A stretch of 9,191 nucleotides of DNA from Chloroflexota bacterium. Its GTDB lineage: Bacteria; Chloroflexota; Anaerolineae; Promineifilales; Promineifilaceae. The notes beneath the pieces were generated by a model. That model worked only from the letters and a program-made list of their open reading frames with translations. It ran no database searches and had not been told where the DNA came from. A program made the translations under genes and the position numbers. Positions within the stretch are counted from its first letter, which is position 1, and each line of letters opens with the position of its first letter. Location: positions 503,421 through 512,611 of the forward strand of contig CP070688.1 of the NCBI GenBank assembly GCA_020353135.1. The letters run 5' to 3'. This document shows, one piece after another, positions 2 through 9,191 of the stretch.

Positions 2-30
2 TTGACTGGAACACTTGTTCGTGCTATACT
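2..30 (+). promoter_or_regulatory. lexA promoter (sigma70-type)
   Basis: A -35 box TTGACT (2-7) and a -10 box TATACT (25-30) are separated by 17 bases, close to the sigma70 consensus. Transcription should start near position 37, about 70 bases before the chosen lexA start codon. The LexA operator fills the spacer, so bound repressor would block RNA polymerase, as expected for autoregulation. Confidence 0.85.
9..20 (+). promoter_or_regulatory. LexA operator (SOS box) of lexA
   Basis: GAACACTTGTTC is an inverted repeat of the GAAC-N4-GTTC type known for LexA of Bacillus, mycobacteria and relatives. It sits between the -35 and -10 boxes of the lexA promoter. A weaker half-site, GAAC followed by a degenerate GAGC (34-45), lies near the transcription start and could be a second low-affinity site. 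The almost identical box at 894-905 supports the assignment. Confidence 0.85.
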
Positions 31-107: not shown

Positions 108-821
108 ATGGCAAATAAGGGTCAAAAACCGCCCAAGAAAGGAAAGCGGTCAAAGCAACAGCAGATGTCGAAGCGCCAACAAAGAATGCTGAAATACATC
201 TCCGAGTATATACAGGATGCAGGCCGGCCGCCTACTATTCGCGAGATCGGAACGGCGGCCGATATCAGTTCGACTTCGGTGGTTAATTATAACCTGACCA
301 AGCTGACAGAGAAGGGCTACATCGATCGAGACGCCGAGGTGTCTCGAGGGTTGCGACTGACCGAGAAGGCCAGGGAGCTGTATGGCGCGGCCGAAGAAGC
401 CGTGGAACGCTTCATCAAGGTCCCGTTGCTAGGCAACATCGTCGCCAGCGAGCCAGTTGAAGTCGGCAATGACAGCTTCGCCACATATGATGACGAGGAC
501 GCCATCGAACTGAGTCGCACGTTGTTGGACGACAAGGCGCCGGAAGATCTCTTCGCCTTACGGGTCAGCGGTGACTCGATGATCGACGCCATGGTGAATG
601 ACGGCGACATCGTGATCATGCGCCAGCAGAAGAGCGCGCGCAATGGCGACATGGTAGCCATCTGGCTGACGCCAGACGGGACGACCACCCTGAAATACTT
701 CTACAACGAGGGTGAGCAGGTGCGTTTGCAGCCGGCCAACCCAACCATGGAACCCATCTACGTCAACCCGGCCGACGTCGACGTCCAGGGGAAAGTCATG
801 ATGGTTCTACGCAACACCTGA
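108..821 (+). CDS. lexA: SOS repressor LexA
   Basis: A transcriptional repressor of DNA-damage genes that cleaves itself when activated by RecA. The 237-residue product has a Lys-rich extension (about 1-20), a LexA-type winged helix (about 22-86; PPTIREIG at 41-48 and the recognition helix near SSTSVVNY) and an S24-type peptidase domain (about 105-237). The catalytic Ser is S157 in SGDSM and the catalytic Lys is K196 in TTLKYF. The scissile position reads VAS (A113-S114) instead of the usual Ala-Gly. The start at 108 is chosen because GAGG at 97-100 is 7 bases upstream; the reading frame is open back to position 15, but that lies upstream of the expected transcript start. The gene is monocistronic, with a terminator at 851-880. 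It is likely autoregulated through the box at 9-20. Confidence 0.95.
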   Translation: MANKGQKPPKKGKRSKQQQMSKRQQRMLKYISEYIQDAGRPPTIREIGTAADISSTSVVNYNLTKLTEKGYIDRDAEVSRGLRLTEKARELYGAAEEAVERFIKVPLLGNIVASEPVEVGNDSFATYDDEDAIELSRTLLDDKAPEDLFALRVSGDSMIDAMVNDGDIVIMRQQKSARNGDMVAIWLTPDGTTTLKYFYNEGEQVRLQPANPTMEPIYVNPADVDVQGKVMMVLRNT

Positions 822-850: not shown

Positions 851-880
851 TGGGCGGCCGTTGTGGCCGCCCACTTTTTT
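851..880 (+). terminator. Intrinsic terminator of lexA
   Basis: A perfect stem GGGCGGCC/GGCCGCCC (852-859 with 865-872), extended by a T-A pair (851/873) and with a five-base loop, is followed by a run of six T (875-880). This is a textbook Rho-independent terminator 30 bases after the lexA stop. It separates lexA from the following gene, which therefore needs its own promoter. Confidence 0.85.
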
Positions 881-883
881 GGG

Positions 884-911
884 TTGTAGATCAGAACATT
901 TGTTCTTGATA
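884..911 (+). promoter_or_regulatory. Putative promoter of the FtsK-like gene
   Basis: A weak -35 (TTGTAG, 884-889) and a -10 (TTGATA, 906-911) with a 16-base spacer lie just after the lexA terminator. The LexA box occupies the spacer, the same layout as at the lexA promoter. The hexamers are poor, so the exact elements are uncertain, but a promoter is required here because of the terminator. Confidence 0.5.
894..905 (+). promoter_or_regulatory. LexA operator upstream of the FtsK-like gene
   Basis: GAACATTTGTTC is a perfect GAAC-N4-GTTC box and matches the lexA operator at 11 of 12 positions. It lies about 40 bases before the start codon of the next gene and downstream of the lexA terminator, so it should control that gene and probably the small gene after it. 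Binding by LexA is inferred from the match. Confidence 0.85.
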
Positions 912-944
912 CGGAGCCGCTAGCTAGTACTCAGCGGAGGCATG

Positions 945-2819
945 ATGGGCACGCAGCATCGACAGGAATGGGTGGAGCCTGACGAATTAGGTGAACAGCG
1001 CAGTTGGAGCCATCCGCAGCGGCGTCTCCAACACCAGGTCGAGATACAGTCTCATCGAATAGAACAGGTCCTGTCCCGACACCAGGTGCCGGCTGACGTC
1101 AGTGGCGGCTCCGTTCGGCCGCATTGGGTTAGTTTTGACCTGGCCACCCAATTGAGCGGAAGCTGGGATCGCCTGAGGAAATTGACCGGCGAATTGACCA
1201 GCGCACTGGGAGTGCCCGAAGTTCGCCTCGACCGGCGTGAAGGCAGATTGCGGCTGGCCGTCAAGCGCTATGAGCCCCATCCGGTCGACTTGCTCGACCT
1301 GTTAGAGCTGCTTCCGGAAGTCCGTGACCTGTCGCTGGCGCTTGGCCTGGACCACCAGGGCTGCCCGGTGATGTTGAACCTGGCCCAAGATGATTTACAT
1401 AATGTACTAGTCACCGGCATTCCTGGGGCCGGCAAGAGCTCGCTAATGCGCACCGTGGCCATCGCCGTGGCCATGACCTGCCGCCAATCGGTAGCCCAGC
1501 TGTCAGTGGTCAGCATCGGCTCGGAGCCCAGCGGCATCACTTCGCGGCCGGACCCGCTAGCCCCGGTCAATTACCTGCCACATATGCTGTTTCCTCTGGC
1601 CGATACGCTTGAGGATGCGGTAGAAGCGCTGGCCTACCTGGTCGACGAGGCGGCCTATCGGGCTGAAGCAGGCATTCGTACACCTTCGCTCATCGTGCTC
1701 ATAGACGATGCGGACATGTTGCTGCGCCGGGCGGGAAGCATCGCCGGCGAACAACTGGGCGCGCTGCTGCACGCCCCGGCTGAATCGGGGCTGCGCGTTA
1801 TCTTCGGCGCTGCCAATCCGGAATTGCCCGACTTGCGGGCGCTGCTACAACATAACGCCGATTTGCGTATCGTCGGCCGCATGGCCGACGAGCGGTCAGC
1901 GCTGGCGGCCGCCGGCCGGGATGGCACCTACGCCCAATACCTGGAGGGCAAGGGCGATTTCCTGGCCGTCTCGGCCGCCGGCGTGGTGCCGTTTCAGGCG
2001 GCCTACATCGACGACTATGACTTGCACCTGACTTTGACCGAGCTTCACCGGGCATCGGATCCGGTCCTGCTCGCTCAGCACGCGGACGAAGGACGGGCGA
2101 CGACTTCTTCCAGGTCGTCGCTCGAGAACCAGTCGTTCACATATGACGGCGTGAGTCAGAGGGCCAGTTTCGAGACATCTGACCGTTCGGACATGGCTAC
2201 GGTTGACGGCGACCGGGCAGATGAAACAGCAGGCGCTGATCCAGACGATGATCTGTCCTGGTTGGATGAGGCGGGCGGTCCGGCGGTGATGCTTGTAGAT
2301 AGAGTGCGGCCGACCGGGCAGGACGATCACGGCGGGCCTGCGGCTTACGAGTTGCCCGAGGATTCTGTGCTTGACGATGCCGCGTCCTCGTCGGTCCAGG
2401 ATGAAGCGTTGCCGGTTGTGCGCGCGGTCGGTCCTCGCATTGCGGGTCAGAGTGGTTCTTCTGAGGCTTCGTCCGATCATGCCGACGGTGAAGAGGTCGT
2501 CGCGGCCGGGGCTGAATCAACTGAAGAGGGGGCGATTTCGGATGTCTCGGCGCTGCAGCCGGCGCATGAATTGCCTGACGATGACGAATCTGGCGGCGGA
2601 AGTTACGAGATGCTGCCTTTTGACCAGCCGTCAACGTTGGGCGAAGAGGCCGACGATGGTTCCGTTGTCGGCGACTTGGATCAGGCGGGCGCCGGAGGTT
2701 CACCAGCAGAGGGCGCCCAGGTCCTCTGGCCGGTCGAGCCTACCTACACCGATATCGACGACGACATGTGGGACGCAGGTGAGGTCGACGAAGATGACTG
2801 GCGCAAGAGATTGCATTAG
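945..2819 (+). CDS. SOS-controlled FtsK/SpoIIIE-like P-loop ATPase with acidic tail
   Basis: A 624-residue protein. Residues about 30-110 resemble the alpha/beta domain that precedes the FtsK motor. A RecA-like ATPase core follows, with Walker A GIPGAGKS (158-165) and Walker B LIVLIDDAD (249-257). The stretch around GKGDFLAV (336-343) matches the end of FtsK motor domains. Two features are atypical: the catalytic Glu after the Walker B Asp is Asp, and the TQRP-like sensor segment reads AANP. There are no membrane segments and no FtsK gamma domain. About 240 C-terminal residues are Asp/Glu/Ser/Gly-rich and probably disordered. ATG 945 is preferred over ATG 942 because GGAGG at 936-940 leaves only one base before 942. 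The gene is probably SOS-induced and cotranscribed with the small gene 65 bases downstream. DNA translocation or remodelling during repair is inference; the partner is unknown. Confidence 0.8.
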   Translation: MGTQHRQEWVEPDELGEQRSWSHPQRRLQHQVEIQSHRIEQVLSRHQVPADVSGGSVRPHWVSFDLATQLSGSWDRLRKLTGELTSALGVPEVRLDRREGRLRLAVKRYEPHPVDLLDLLELLPEVRDLSLALGLDHQGCPVMLNLAQDDLHNVLVTGIPGAGKSSLMRTVAIAVAMTCRQSVAQLSVVSIGSEPSGITSRPDPLAPVNYLPHMLFPLADTLEDAVEALAYLVDEAAYRAEAGIRTPSLIVLIDDADMLLRRAGSIAGEQLGALLHAPAESGLRVIFGAANPELPDLRALLQHNADLRIVGRMADERSALAAAGRDGTYAQYLEGKGDFLAVSAAGVVPFQAAYIDDYDLHLTLTELHRASDPVLLAQHADEGRATTSSRSSLENQSFTYDGVSQRASFETSDRSDMATVDGDRADETAGADPDDDLSWLDEAGGPAVMLVDRVRPTGQDDHGGPAAYELPEDSVLDDAASSSVQDEALPVVRAVGPRIAGQSGSSEASSDHADGEEVVAAGAESTEEGAISDVSALQPAHELPDDDESGGGSYEMLPFDQPSTLGEEADDGSVVGDLDQAGAGGSPAEGAQVLWPVEPTYTDIDDDMWDAGEVDEDDWRKRLH

Positions 2820-2884
2820 GAGCTTAAGCGGCCGGCAAGAGGTTGATAGCTCGAAGCCGGCAGCTAGATACCAGGAGCGTACCG

Positions 2885-3109
2885 ATGAATGTTGGCATGT
2901 TATGGCTAGACGACGACAAGCAGACCTCCTTTGAGGACAAGGTCCTCCGTGCGGCCGACTATTACCGTGAGAAGTACGGCCGGGCGCCTAATCTTTGCCT
3001 GGTGAACAAGACCATGGTCGAAGACGAACAGCGGGTCGGCAAGATCCAGGTCCAGCCGGTCAAGAATGTCTTGCCCAACCATTTCTGGATAGGCGTCAGC
3101 GCCGGTTGA
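2885..3109 (+). CDS. Small conserved-looking protein in the SOS operon, function unknown
   Basis: A 74-residue soluble protein. The start is set by AGGAG at 2873-2877, seven bases before ATG 2885; the frame is open further upstream (TTG at 2843) but with a poorer site. The N-terminus is hydrophobic then acidic (MLWLDDD, about 5-11), followed by a probable helix (about 16-32, ending YYREKYGR) and a beta-rich C-terminal half (LCLVNKT, VGKIQVQPVKNVLP). No catalytic motif, Cys pair or membrane segment is seen. It follows the FtsK-like gene after 65 bases with no terminator between, so the pair is probably one LexA-controlled transcript. I believe similar short proteins occur in other Chloroflexota, but this is from memory and untested. 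The function is not known. Confidence 0.75.
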   Translation: MNVGMLWLDDDKQTSFEDKVLRAADYYREKYGRAPNLCLVNKTMVEDEQRVGKIQVQPVKNVLPNHFWIGVSAG

Positions 3110-3177: not shown

Positions 3178-4596
3178 ATGAAGATGCGGGAGTGGATGGT
3201 CGCCGCGGCCGGTCTGTTGACCGGCGTTTTGCTGTTGTTAGCCTGGTTGTCGCCTCGGATCAAGGACCGGCAGCCCGAAGGCGAGGCCCTGTCAGCCTGG
3301 ACGCCCATCGCCATCACCCTAAACCGCCCGGTTCGCCCGGAGACCGTCGCCGGCCGCTTCGAATTGTCGCCCGAAGTCAACGGCCAGCTGCGCATCGAGG
3401 GCGATCAAGTCGTCTTCCAGCCGGCAGAAGCGCTGAATTACGGCCGGACCTACACAGTCACACTTCGGCCGGGCGCCAGCGGAACCAACCGCCTGCCTAT
3501 GCTGCGCGGCGCCGATTGGTCCTTTGAAGTCCGGCCGCCCCGCCTGCTGTACTTGCGCCAAGAGGGCGACATCGCCAACCTATGGCTGCTGGAAAGTGAC
3601 GGCTCTGACCGGCAATTGACCTCCGAGCCAGGCGGTGTCTGGGACTTCGCGGCCCTGCCTGGCGGCCGGGGTGTCGTTTACTCGGCTTTCGACGAGGATG
3701 GCTCCCTCGACCTGGTCCTGCTGACGGCCGGCGGCGGGCGCGAACTGCTGCTGGATTGCGCCGGAGCGCTATGTCGTTCTCCGGTCGTCCAGCCCTTCGG
3801 CCGCTGGCTGGCCTACGAGCGCCAGGCCCTCGACGGCGACCTTTTGGCCAGCGAATTGTGGCTGCTGGACCTGGCCTCGGGCGAGACGTCCCCGGCGCCC
3901 GTGCCAGGCGACCTGGCTGCGGCCGGTTTCGCCGCGCCTCTGGGTCGTTTTCCTCGCTGGTCGCCCGACGGCCGTTACCTGGCCTTCTACAAGCCCGACG
4001 CCAACATGGTCATCATTCACGATTTTGCCGCTGACGACGCCGGCTCGGCGTCGTTCACGCCGGCCACAGTCACCATCCCGGCCAACCTGGAGGCCATGGG
4101 CGATTGGTCGCCCGACAGCCGCCGGCTGGCTTACAGCGAGCTGGCCTTTGGCGAAACAGAAGCCCACGAGCACGACGACGGCGCTGGCGCCGTCATCTCC
4201 CACACCCGGCCGTCCCTGTACAACCACGTCGTCGTGGCTGACATTCCAGACGAAACGGTCGGCGATTTAAGCGCCGGCCTGGAAGTCGACGAAGGTCGCC
4301 CGGCCTGGCATCCTAACGGCCAAGCGCTGGCCATGACCCGCACGTCCACCGGCGGCGGCCGCCAGATCTGGCTGGTACCGCTCGACGGCCGCCCGGCCAC
4401 GCAGTTAACCGACGATCCCTTATTCGACCACACCGCCCTGTCCTGGTCCCCCGACGGCCGTTCCCTGGCCTACATGCGCGTACCCCGCCCCAGCGCCACA
4501 GGCAGCGCCATCCCGGTCCTGATGGTCATCGATCTCGAAACCGGCCAGGCCGAATCCATAGCCGAAGCAGCCTTCACCCCCGCCTGGTGGCCGTAG
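3178..4596 (+). CDS. Membrane-anchored Ig-like/TolB-type beta-propeller protein
   Basis: A 472-residue protein with an N-terminal membrane segment (about 8-24, after MKMREW), either a signal anchor or an uncleaved signal. Residues about 37-118 look like a bacterial Ig-like (SbsA/Big_5) domain, with NRPVRPETVAGRFELSP and YGRTYTVTLRPGA. The rest is a PD40/TolB-like beta-propeller, with WSPDG-type blades at about 258-271, 307-320, 375-387 and 421-433, and a closing FTPAWWP. One inter-blade loop (about 327-342) is His/Asp-rich (EAHEHDDG). No enzymatic residues are evident, so a role in extracytoplasmic protein binding or scaffolding is inferred. ATG 3178 has no ribosome site, consistent with a leaderless transcript from the adjacent -10; ATG 3184 is an alternative. 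The gene probably stands alone. Confidence 0.85.
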   Translation: MKMREWMVAAAGLLTGVLLLLAWLSPRIKDRQPEGEALSAWTPIAITLNRPVRPETVAGRFELSPEVNGQLRIEGDQVVFQPAEALNYGRTYTVTLRPGASGTNRLPMLRGADWSFEVRPPRLLYLRQEGDIANLWLLESDGSDRQLTSEPGGVWDFAALPGGRGVVYSAFDEDGSLDLVLLTAGGGRELLLDCAGALCRSPVVQPFGRWLAYERQALDGDLLASELWLLDLASGETSPAPVPGDLAAAGFAAPLGRFPRWSPDGRYLAFYKPDANMVIIHDFAADDAGSASFTPATVTIPANLEAMGDWSPDSRRLAYSELAFGETEAHEHDDGAGAVISHTRPSLYNHVVVADIPDETVGDLSAGLEVDEGRPAWHPNGQALAMTRTSTGGGRQIWLVPLDGRPATQLTDDPLFDHTALSWSPDGRSLAYMRVPRPSATGSAIPVLMVIDLETGQAESIAEAAFTPAWWP

Positions 4597-5190: not shown

Positions 5191-6180
5191 ATGACCGGCT
5201 CAAAGCCTCAACCACTGATCCTGGACAGTCTCGATGAATTGGTCTATCGGGCAACTACTACCCTGGCAGGGATACAGCTCGATCTGTTTACAGCGCTCAA
5301 AGATGGGCCGCTGAGCGCTGCTCAGATTGCAGAATCAATTGGTGTAGAAACAGCCAAGTTACAACCGCTGCTCTATGCGCTAGTCATTGTCGGTCTACTT
5401 ACGGTGGAGGAGGGTTCCTTTGCGAATACGGCTGAAGCCGATTATTACTTGGTACGGGGTCGCCCTGGTTACCAGGGGCACCGGCACAAATACTGGTCAG
5501 ACATTTGGCGCGCAGTTTTGACCGTCGGTGAATCCATCCGAACTGGATTGCCACAGGCGAAGCACGATTACTCAGCCATGCCTGCATACGAATTGGAGGA
5601 GTTTCTGCATGGCTTGTACCCTTGGACTTACGACACAGGCCAGTGGTTGGCCCAGAATCATGATTTCTCGTCATGTCAGGTCGTGTTGGATGCTGGTGGG
5701 GGTTCGGGTGCTCTGGCGATAGCGATGACAACAGCGCTACCTCATCTCAAAGCGATAGTTGTTGAACAAGCAGCGGTTGCACCGGTCACACAACGCTTTG
5801 TAGAGCGGCTTGGTGCTTCCGATCGTGTTCAGGTGAAGGCTGTTGATTTGACTCGACATCCGTTGTCCGGCCCCTTTGATGCGGCCTTCTTGAAAGCGGT
5901 CATTCAAACAATCTCGTTAGAAGAAGCCTGTCTCGTGCTTCAAAACATTTATGAGGCGCTCAGACCAGGTGGCACTGTTTACGTTTTGGATGGGCCACTG
6001 GACAATTCCCGTTTGACACCACCGGATTTAGTCTTGTTCAATGCGGTTTTTACGGCTATCTATGACCATGGTCAGAAATACACCATCCAAGAGTACAGAG
6101 ACGTGCTCACAGATGCAGGATTTGAGGGTTTTGCGCTGGATGCGGACAGAATCATAACGGCTCGAAAGCCACCATCCTAA
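5191..6180 (+). CDS. SAM-dependent methyltransferase, O-methyltransferase family 2 type
   Basis: A 329-residue protein with the two-domain build of the Methyltransf_2 (CrtF/caffeate OMT-like) family: an N-terminal winged-helix dimerisation domain (about 12-85; LSAAQIAESIGVETAKLQPLL) and a Rossmann domain (about 155-326). The glycine-rich SAM-binding motif I is VVLDAGGGSGA (164-174). The acidic residue for SAM ribose is probably E192 in IVVEQ, and LRPGGTVYVLD (257-267) is the usual later strand motif. The His-Asp pair (HDW) typical of catalytic base motifs is replaced here (FLKAVIQTIS, 233-242), so the chemistry may differ. The start at 5191 has AAGGAG seven bases upstream. Base and codon use is visibly less GC-rich than in neighbouring genes, and the gene lies between two direct repeats, suggesting acquisition. 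The substrate is unknown. Confidence 0.85.
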   Translation: MTGSKPQPLILDSLDELVYRATTTLAGIQLDLFTALKDGPLSAAQIAESIGVETAKLQPLLYALVIVGLLTVEEGSFANTAEADYYLVRGRPGYQGHRHKYWSDIWRAVLTVGESIRTGLPQAKHDYSAMPAYELEEFLHGLYPWTYDTGQWLAQNHDFSSCQVVLDAGGGSGALAIAMTTALPHLKAIVVEQAAVAPVTQRFVERLGASDRVQVKAVDLTRHPLSGPFDAAFLKAVIQTISLEEACLVLQNIYEALRPGGTVYVLDGPLDNSRLTPPDLVLFNAVFTAIYDHGQKYTIQEYRDVLTDAGFEGFALDADRIITARKPPS

Positions 6181-7243: not shown

Positions 7244-8749
7244 CTAATCCGACCCCATCAACGAGGCCTCGATCTGCTGTCGACGCTCGGCGAATTCATT
7301 GGCCTTGCCCTGCGCAGGGGCAATGACGCCGTCCGCCAGCGTCGCGATGAGCTTCTCCGGATCCCCGTAGAGAAAGGGCAGTAGCACACCTGGACAGTCC
7401 TGGAAGTCGCGGAACATCTCGTGGTCGTACTGCTGCTCCTGCACAATGGGTTGTACAGGCAACGAAGGCAGGTCCTTCACGACGAATTGCAGCTCCCGGG
7501 CGATATCGCGGGCATCCGTGATATCGGCGATCACGAAGCGAGCCATTTGGGCCAGAGCCGTCACGGTTTTTGTCAGATTGGGGTGCTCGCCGAGCTCAAA
7601 GTCAAACGATACCGGCAGATAGTCGCGTTGACGCAGCTCATCCCGCATGGCGTGCAATTCAGGCTTCCTGTCCTCGCCGAACCGGCCGAGAACGAGTACT
7701 ACCTTCTCGCCAATGGTTTTGACGACCCGGCCGATCTTGTCGTTGTGCAGCATCAAATGGACGAACTGAGCCACCTCGACGTCGTCTACCGTGATAACAG
7801 GCTGATCTAACGGGGTAATTATCAGATCCAACTGTATCGAATTGGTTAGCGTGAGATCCCAGGCCGACATTCCGTAGACCCAAGAACCAGTGAGATCCGC
7901 GTCATCCAGAATCGCCTTGACCAACATCGCCCTGAAGAGATAGGCGCGGCGCAGGTTGGTCCCGGTCAGGTTGGACTCGACGAGGCTGGCCGCGCCCAGA
8001 TCGGCCCATCTCAGGTCGGCTCTGGTCAGATCGGCCTGGCCAAGGTTGGCGCCGCTCAGGTCGGCTCCACTCAAGTCGGCGTCGCTCAGGTCGGCCTGGC
8101 ACAAATCGGCGCCGCTCAGGCTGGCTCTGCTGAGGTCAGCGCTGCTCAGGTCGGCGCCGCTCAGGTCAACGCCGCTCAGGTCGGCCGTGGTCAAGTTGGC
8201 GTTGCCCAGCTTGGCCTCGCTCAAATCGGCGCCGCTCAGATTGGCTCTACTCAGGTCGGCCGCGACCAGGTTGGCTCTACGCAAGTCGGCCCCGCTTAGC
8301 TGGGCCCCGGCCAGGTTGGCCTTGACCAGGTCGCTCTCGACCAGGTCGACCTCGACCAGGCTGGCGCTAGGCAGGTTAGCGCCGATCAGGTTAGCCCAGC
8401 GCAGGATCGCCCCGTCCAGCCTGGCCTCGCTCAAGTCGGACCTGTTCAGGAAGGCCCGGCTCAAGTTGGCCCCAATCAGATAGGCGCGGCTCAAGTCGGC
8501 TCCGATCAGGTCGGCGCCGATCAGGCTGGCCCTGCTCAGGTAGGCCTCGCTCAAGTCGGCTCTGTCCAGGTTGGCTCCGACCAGGTTGGCCCGGCTCAGG
8601 TAGGCATCGCTCAGGTCGGCCCCAACCAGGCTGGCCCCGTCGAGGTCGGCCGCGGTCAAATCAGGCGCTTCCGCAGGGTTATCGTTTCTCCACCGATTCC
8701 AGTCTTCCTGGCTTTCTACCAGAATCGCTAACTGTTCCTGGTTGGCCAT
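7244..8749 (-). CDS. Pentapeptide-repeat protein with C-terminal TIR-like domain
   Basis: A 501-residue protein. A short head (1-30) is followed by 52 consecutive pentapeptides (about 27-290) of form A(D/N)LSx. The central Leu occurs at every fifth residue from L31 to L286 without a break, predicting a right-handed quadrilateral beta-helix of about 13 coils. A linker (about 290-345) leads to an alpha/beta domain (about 347-475): VVLVLGRFGED, then RDELRQRDYLPVSFDFE, then RFVIADITDARDIARELQ. This resembles TIR-like or nucleoside-deoxyribosyltransferase-like folds, with E419 a candidate catalytic Glu. Family knowledge: such repeats act as protein scaffolds or DNA mimics. A sensor-effector role is inference. 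The start at 8749 has GGAG three bases upstream, a short spacing; the frame is open to TTG 8779, so the start is uncertain. Confidence 0.85.
   Translation of the reverse strand: MANQEQLAILVESQEDWNRWRNDNPAEAPDLTAADLDGASLVGADLSDAYLSRANLVGANLDRADLSEAYLSRASLIGADLIGADLSRAYLIGANLSRAFLNRSDLSEARLDGAILRWANLIGANLPSASLVEVDLVESDLVKANLAGAQLSGADLRRANLVAADLSRANLSGADLSEAKLGNANLTTADLSGVDLSGADLSSADLSRASLSGADLCQADLSDADLSGADLSGANLGQADLTRADLRWADLGAASLVESNLTGTNLRRAYLFRAMLVKAILDDADLTGSWVYGMSAWDLTLTNSIQLDLIITPLDQPVITVDDVEVAQFVHLMLHNDKIGRVVKTIGEKVVLVLGRFGEDRKPELHAMRDELRQRDYLPVSFDFELGEHPNLTKTVTALAQMARFVIADITDARDIARELQFVVKDLPSLPVQPIVQEQQYDHEMFRDFQDCPGVLLPFLYGDPEKLIATLADGVIAPAQGKANEFAERRQQIEASLMGSD
7880..8659 (-). repeat. 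15-base coding tandem repeat (pentapeptide array)
   Basis: DNA-level trace of the pentapeptide region: a 15-base period, read on the + strand as variants of CTCAGGTCGGCGCCG. The copies are diverged but keep the Leu codon and frame throughout. The array also creates long open frames on the opposite strand that are not genes. Confidence 0.9.
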
Positions 8750-8843: not shown

Positions 8844-9191
8844 TCAGGGGCATGGCGTGGCCAGCAAATGGGGGCCGTCTGTGAAGGCGCAGCCAAAAGC
8901 GGGGTCGGCCACGGCGGCCGGGTCCAGCCAGTTGTCGCCGGCCGGTTTGACGCCGGCTTCGACCCAGGTCACCAGGTCGACAAAGGCGGCGACCATTTCG
9001 GCCGGCGTGAAGTCACAGTGCCCCACGCCGCGAATGGCGCGCTGCACCAGCAGATCGCTCTTTCCCTGGCCGGCAACCCGCTGGGCATAGACGACTTCAT
9101 TGTGGACCGGCACAAACAGATCTCCCAAGTTATGCAATGTCAGAACCGGAATGGTGATGTCGCCGCTGATGACCGGCACCTGGGCCAGGCC
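8844..9191 (-). CDS. Alpha/beta hydrolase, C-terminal part (5' end outside window)
   Basis: The last 115 residues of a larger protein; the frame is open to the window edge and no start is visible with support (GTG at 9179 lies within a conserved-looking strand). The piece ITIPVLTLHNLGDLFVPV carries the acid residue (D24 of the visible part) and RGVGHCDF the catalytic His (H58), in the order and spacing normal for the end of an alpha/beta hydrolase or esterase. The nucleophile would lie upstream, outside the window. The C-terminus (DGPHLLATPCP) has no anchor. It could be an esterase or a secreted peptidase-like hydrolase; the substrate is unknown. A 26-base palindrome follows the stop. Confidence 0.75.
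   Translation of the reverse strand, partial: GLAQVPVISGDITIPVLTLHNLGDLFVPVHNEVVYAQRVAGQGKSDLLVQRAIRGVGHCDFTPAEMVAAFVDLVTWVEAGVKPAGDNWLDPAAVADPAFGCAFTDGPHLLATPCP

Follow-up and report, generated by a model that had tools for sequence, protein, structure and literature searches.

A LexA-boxed operon pairing an FtsK-type motor with an unnamed small protein appears to be a damage-response module of Chloroflexota

What might a DNA-damage operon gain from an FtsK-like ATPase and a protein of only 74 residues? The question is raised by a stretch of 9,191 nucleotides from a Chloroflexota bacterium (GenBank assembly GCA_020353135.1, contig CP070688.1, positions 503,421 to 512,611 of the forward strand; the whole stretch is hereafter termed the window), in which genes for these two proteins follow lexA and carry a LexA box of their own. 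A first-pass annotation had placed this box, one base away from the lexA operator, after the lexA terminator and upstream of the FtsK-like gene. We confirmed the observation, as the boxes, lexA and the gene pair were all found at their coordinates. From its conservation in relatives, the locus appears to be a LexA-repressed (SOS) operon in which an FtsK-type motor and a small-family protein together constitute a damage-response module of Chloroflexota.

Within the window, lexA occupies 108..821 of the plus strand (TIGR00498 at 180.3 bits against a cut-off of 110.95, with PF01726 and PF00717 also above cut-off). It is preceded on the same strand by a promoter-like site at 2..30 (TTGACT, 17 nt, TATACT; 10 of 12 consensus matches, with TG before the second hexamer), which encloses the LexA box of lexA, GAACACTTGTTC, at 9..20. 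On the 3' side of lexA, a terminator-like hairpin followed by a T run (851..873, plus strand) may close the lexA unit, and the operon box, GAACATTTGTTC (894..905), lies 3' of this hairpin and 36 bp ahead of the ATG at 942. Both boxes are exact matches to GAACN4GTTC and differ from each other by a single base; the operon box is flanked by A and T at 893 and 906, and its position is kept in relatives. Approximately 0.14 exact boxes would be expected in the window by chance (4^-8 per position). The motif count by itself is weak evidence, and the argument rests on conserved position. As a separate observation, the window LexA carries VAS-EP (Ala-Ser) at what we presume, from known LexA proteins, to be its self-cleavage site. 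This presumed site is Ala-Gly in 21 of the 26 LexA homologues listed; Ala-Ser recurs in L024 and, less clearly, in L018, and three rows lacked the site by pattern.

A profile of the small protein identified 230 encoding stretches in the genome collection, the best 80 of which were kept and combined with the window to give 81 loci, a sample biased towards window-like copies of the small gene. An FtsK-like gene lies immediately upstream of the small gene in 63 of the 81, at a gap of 50 bp or less in 54 of these 63 and with a 4-bp overlap in 10. In the other 18 loci the small gene occurs without an upstream FtsK-like gene, so that of the pair it is the small protein that is conserved more widely, a feature that the first-pass annotation had missed. 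Within the interval from -400 to +120 relative to the operon start, 44 of 72 loci have an exact box (nine of the 81, with less than 300 bp upstream, were left out), compared with 85 of 9158 random windows drawn from those loci. Separated by kind, the 25 lexA-ATPase-small loci comprise 13 with an exact box and 8 with a seven-of-eight core flanked by A..T; among 38 ATPase-small loci away from lexA, the 30 with enough sequence divide into 21 exact and 9 seven-of-eight; and 10 of 17 small-only loci with enough sequence (18 in all) have an exact box. Random windows for this comparison (n = 2971) gave 1.6% exact and 0.3% seven-of-eight. Furthermore, a box stands ahead of lexA itself in all 21 lexA-ATPase-small loci with enough sequence, and across loci the box core is constant and its four central bases variable, whether or not lexA lies alongside. 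One relative (L052) carries three exact boxes in a row (8939-9050) ahead of its ATPase-small operon, the last of which ends just before the ATPase start. Box and gene pair, whose absence from relatives the first-pass annotation regarded as evidence against a damage operon, therefore recur in many of them.

These counts are tempered by several observations. Neither kind of box was found in 4 of the 25 lexA-adjacent loci or in 7 of the 17 small-only loci, and the loci share ancestry, so that the counts cannot be treated as separate trials. When one mismatch is tolerated, 4 box sites occur in the window against 3.46 expected from shuffles, and genome-wide AGAACN4GTTCT is only about twice as frequent as its reversed control (27 versus 13; five genomes, one strand). 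Co-occurrence with lexA is uninformative, a LexA-domain match being present in 246 of the 251 genomes surveyed (the phylum of G001, a known carrier that is included). Inspection by eye of the genes behind other boxes in five genomes (L111-L126) revealed no clear regulon. Taking the conservation as a whole, LexA control of the operon is nearly certain, and a functional pairing of the ATPase with the small protein is highly probable.

Extending the small-protein profile to the 251 genomes gave a match in 55, of which 50 have a single match. Forty of 41 weaker matches were fetched with their flanks, and each contains a small-protein frame. An exact box lies within -700..+60 in 24 of 39 of these diverged loci (one of the 40, with less than 700 bp upstream, was left out), compared with 34 of 7775 random windows, and the reversed pattern occurs in 0 of the 39 over the same interval. 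Profile-profile comparison places the two halves in the same family (probability 99.7%, E 3.1e-26). A database search with the diverged half returned 251 proteins, the organism-named ones belonging to Chloroflexota groups (among the matches listed: 120).

The ATPase frame spans 942..2819 of the plus strand (625 codons, start 942 or 945). Translation probably begins at 945, as the homologues start from the second Met, and a ribosome-binding-like GGAGG at 936..940 (plus strand) fits this choice. The RecA-like beta domain of the FtsK/SpoIIIE motor family, including the two Walker motifs, is present by profile, motifs and fold: PF01580 scores 26.2 bits, just over its cut-off of 24; Walker A reads GIPGAGKS at residues 159-166 (1416..1439); and a Walker B-like LIVLIDD occupies residues 250-256 (1689..1709), with D255 invariant in homologue alignments. 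The alpha domain, PF17854, reaches 21.0 bits, below its cut-off of 22.9. In the structure model the motor core is confidently predicted over approximately residues 24-380 (1011..2081); its fold alignment covers residues 29-373, and FtsK, not RecA, heads the fold search, with no RecA match in Pfam at E up to 1. No membrane segment is apparent (highest 19-residue mean hydropathy 1.43), and Pfam at E up to 1 gave no match to the winged-helix gamma domain of FtsK, the C-terminal part being disordered in the model. This part, residues 381-625 (2082..2816), is an acidic tail with 61 D/E and 12 K/R, modelled mostly below a predicted local distance difference test (pLDDT) score of 50. The soluble FtsK-like motor with an acidic tail described by the first-pass annotation is hence borne out for the window by profile, fold model and composition; the long tail is found, with short motifs in common, in the close relatives P0123-P0127 and not in aligned members of about 400 residues. 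One partial protein among the 43 ATPase homologues, P0128, is labelled Planctomycetota.

The small gene (2885..3109, plus strand) has its own ribosome site, as previously annotated, in the form of a ribosome-binding-like AGGAG at 2873..2877, 7 nt before the ATG. Its 74-residue product belongs to a Chloroflexota family that is absent from Pfam, PHROGs and PADLOC. Its NCBIfam match is at chance level (E 0.17), and its profile matched no PDB sequence at better than E 0.17. The structure model is confident (pLDDT 93.4), fold searches returned middling matches only, and no membrane segment was detected (highest 19-residue mean hydropathy 0.34). All organism-named homologues are from Chloroflexota (among the matches listed: 120 of 136).

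The neighbourhoods of the diverged loci indicate that the small family also occurs with a different partner. An upstream open reading frame (ORF) of one BLAST cluster is found in 12 of the 40 diverged loci; of four such ORFs compared with Pfam, three gave no DUF6504 match and the fourth scored 33.7 bits against a cut-off of 24.2. DUF6504 exceeds its cut-off in 34 of the 251 genomes, and in six of them (G039, G048, G075, G083, G107 and G115) it does so about 50 bp ahead of a small gene. In L207, DUF6504 is flanked by an IMS-family gene on one side and a C-family polymerase gene on the other, all three by Pfam. L210 resembles it, with the IMS-family gene and DUF6504 by Pfam and the polymerase by eye, as do L200, L202, L205 and L209 by eye, the upstream gene of L202 having no Pfam match. 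These DUF6504-polymerase units have an exact box near their start in L200, L202, L207 and L209, and none in L205 and L210; other DUF6504 loci inspected (e.g. L167-L176) lack both a box and a polymerase-type partner. Genome G016 has a box, AGAACATATGTTCT, ahead of an FtsK-like gene (PF01580 91.9 bits, PF17854 50.4 bits), with DUF6504 approximately 580 bp further on (L206); at L225 it also has a RecA-family gene that carries a box and is succeeded by an ImuB-like reading frame. A radical SAM gene with a box near its start precedes DUF6504 in L178. Standalone ImuB-C domains are described in PMC3765255 as mobile, occurring in mutagenic-polymerase operons as well as with a radical SAM photolyase. 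DUF6504 fits this context, a match of context only and not of domain identity. Separately, genes resembling rsmH by eye, mostly accompanied by mraZ and a division transpeptidase, were noted upstream on the opposite strand in L127, L145, L146, L151, L153, L161, L162 and L164.

Tails and viral contigs provide further context. Of 271 family sequences, 27 members have tails of 20 or more residues, and in four of them (L137, L142, L156, L163), whose tails are long and of low complexity, [ST]LW follows a Gln by a few residues. This arrangement resembles the clamp motif of M. tuberculosis ImuB, QLPLWG (PMC10421592). The SLWD/G form occurs in 3 tails versus 0.01 expected on shuffling, and the Gln-anchored form in 3 (L142, L156, L163) versus 0.19. 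Genomes G097 and G201 encode both a small protein with a clamp-like tail (L163 and L137, respectively) and a DUF6504 gene adjoining a DnaE2-like gene (L200 and L202). The small protein is also encoded in 30 IMG/VR loci (L081-L110), on contigs that are viral by IMG/VR prediction, where a box was present in 0 of the 28 loci with enough sequence and an FtsK-like gene lay upstream in 1 of 30; these unboxed copies had likewise escaped the first-pass annotation. Nine nearby proteins were scanned and comprise clamp-like, Erf-like, SSB, ParA, ParB (two) and terminase proteins, one member of an unknown-function family and one without a match. In L083 the small gene stands two genes after a clamp-like gene (phrog_947), and in L095, L102 and L109 it lies near partition genes. 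Against 50,697 phage and 72,556 plasmid records, tblastn with the small protein gave no match.

How might such an operon act? The sequences support the box, the conserved pairing, a boxed small family in several Chloroflexota lineages, the FtsK fold and the changes of partner involving DUF6504; from these we infer LexA binding and induction, DNA translocation, an adaptor role and a link to the clamp or a polymerase. Upon DNA damage, activated RecA would prompt LexA self-cleavage and free the box at 894-905, whereupon the cell would produce a small soluble alpha/beta protein along with an FtsK-type motor that is cytosolic and comprises alpha and beta domains, neither a membrane part nor a gamma domain having been seen. 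The motor could assemble on double-stranded DNA and use ATP to move along or remodel it where damage or stalling has occurred; the small protein may act as an adaptor from the motor to the replication or translesion machinery, either the sliding clamp or a translesion polymerase complex. The pair would then play a role like that of ImuA, the RecA-fold accessory protein of ImuA-ImuB-DnaE2. Of the possibilities raised by the first-pass annotation, a step in repair is favoured by the partner changes of DUF6504 together with the clamp-motif-like tails of a few distant members. We advance, as a tentative reading that falls somewhat short of probable, a role in damage tolerance in which the motor would be an accessory comparable to ImuA and the small protein would be its adaptor.

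A number of findings argue against this damage-tolerance role. The operon itself has no polymerase gene, and neither imuB nor dnaE2 was found within the window from the ORF list and Pfam scans. An ImuB-like query against the 22 genomes with an Anaerolineae-type small gene gave one Y-family match (353-452 codons) in 14 and none in 8, and no ImuB-type cassette was found among the Y-family neighbours inspected by eye in these genomes (G016, a 23rd genome of another kind, stands outside this count). Because the operon lacks a polymerase gene and no such cassette was found, the translesion link rests on relatives and not on the window. The tail patterns were picked after the tails had been read, and the clamp-like motif occurs in 4 of the 27 long-tailed members and in neither window protein. 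One outside ImuB, from Cupriavidus, gave a match to IMS only, so that DUF6504 and ImuB-C agree in context. Lastly, G-x4-GK[ST] is missing from 8 of 29 short operon ATPases (L027, L039, L044, L049, L068, L069, L070 and L078; the count leaves out L029 and L079 at contig ends, L048 and L060 without a motor match, and L067, which is of another kind), which suggests that ATP hydrolysis may have been lost repeatedly among them.

Other explanations account for parts of the same evidence. SulA and YneA are known to delay division under SOS, and by analogy the pair might delay division or segregation during damage, the motor working at the closing septum or on trapped DNA. Control by a conserved SOS box and the kinship of the motor with FtsK are consistent with such a checkpoint, and the opposite strand upstream carries mraZ-, rsmH- and division transpeptidase-like genes in 7, 8 and 9 of the 40 diverged loci, respectively, a weak positional hint in which the neighbours were named by eye and come from one group of related loci. 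Given that neither protein has a membrane segment, and that several predicted viral contigs have replication or partition genes beside their small-protein copy, we consider a checkpoint unlikely. DinI and phage gp7 are modulators of RecA or LexA, and a small soluble protein under LexA, adjoining lexA in 25 of the 81 loci and present without a box in the 30 predicted viral loci, could similarly tune SOS, and the motor, as its partner, would clear filaments or DNA. However, lexA is not directly upstream in the other 56 loci, no sequence match or significant fold match to a known modulator was obtained, and the FtsK-type motor would be left unexplained, making this reading more doubtful still.

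A HerA-like repair translocase, whose motor would drive DNA during recombination or the processing of ends, loaded or regulated by the small protein, is quite improbable. The window ATPase scores lower against HerA than against FtsK, and, unlike in HerA-NurA, no nuclease partner was seen, although the small protein, having no Pfam match, could be a diverged nuclease. A domesticated mobile-element or defence module that came under LexA by happenstance would agree with the IMG/VR loci, their clamp-like, recombination, partition and terminase neighbours, and the PADLOC matches of mad8 and SspH. However, most matching genomes hold a single copy and many copies are boxed, and the viral loci lack the box and, with one exception, the FtsK-like gene; this origin is accordingly very improbable. 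An anti-phage system was rejected on the ground that the PADLOC matches are weak and mainly over the P-loop region, as was a phage or plasmid origin, the small protein having no tblastn match in either collection even though the IMG/VR loci exist. A secretion ATPase was ruled out by NCBIfam cut-offs.

The remainder of the window is of a different character. Downstream of the small gene, 3178-4593 encodes a beta-propeller/Ig-like protein (PF07676, PF13205), which seems not to be part of the module because a related gene follows the small gene in only 4 genomic loci. Further along are an O-methyltransferase with a dimerisation domain (5191-6177; PF00891, 77 bits) and, on the minus strand, a pentapeptide-repeat protein (7247-8749; PF00805, 263 bits) with a C-terminal part of about 150 residues outside the repeats.

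Most known SOS effectors are from a small number of intensively studied phyla. In the present case, a LexA-boxed, unnamed family is common to several Chloroflexota lineages and is paired with an FtsK-type motor other than the FtsK of the divisome. What would be new is an accessory cassette under SOS control whose motor is unusual and whose small protein represents an unnamed family. No description of the ATPase-small pair was found by title or abstract in the literature searched, whose scope excludes most subscription journals, and the main text of PMC3765255, PMC6511836 and PMC12926913 contains neither FtsK nor Chloroflex-. A motor at work in damage tolerance would give the FtsK motor family a new task, and one acting on division would amount to a new checkpoint. 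Both roles can be tested in cultured members, since the relatives include Anaerolinea thermolimosa (L044). The most extended form of our proposal, in which the small family has interchangeable partners (the FtsK-type motor and DUF6504) and an FtsK-type translocase replaces ImuA to clear or remodel DNA or replisomes for translesion synthesis, an arrangement of a type not described in other phyla, is rather unlikely to hold in full.

Relative to the FtsK alpha-beta translocase, the window ATPase has no membrane domain, no gamma match and a disordered acidic tail, and it comes with a LexA box and a 74-residue partner. Its alpha and beta domains fit FtsK together only at a root-mean-square deviation (rmsd) of 11.4, which may mean another domain angle. 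Its RecA-like domain also fits the type VII secretion ATPases EccC/EssC at an rmsd of 2.0-2.6, but its NCBIfam scores fall far below cut-off (EccCb 26.1 versus 346.55, EccCa 14.9 versus 509.15 and EssC 15.5 versus 778.4 bits), it has a single motor domain, and no secretion genes were read in the window. The ImuA-ImuB-DnaE2 mutasome differs in that the window motor is FtsK-type, not RecA-type, and its operon lacks ImuB and DnaE2. Both are nonetheless LexA-controlled cassettes with a RecA-fold accessory protein, and DUF6504 is common to ImuA-ImuB-DnaE2-like cassettes (L207, L210) and small-gene operons. ImuA groups themselves include members both with and without Walker motifs (PMC12926913). Finally, the small protein of the window is of another family than the standalone ImuB-C proteins (PMC3765255), which are likewise small SOS-operon proteins that shift from polymerase to repair contexts and back, a behaviour shared here by the small protein and DUF6504.
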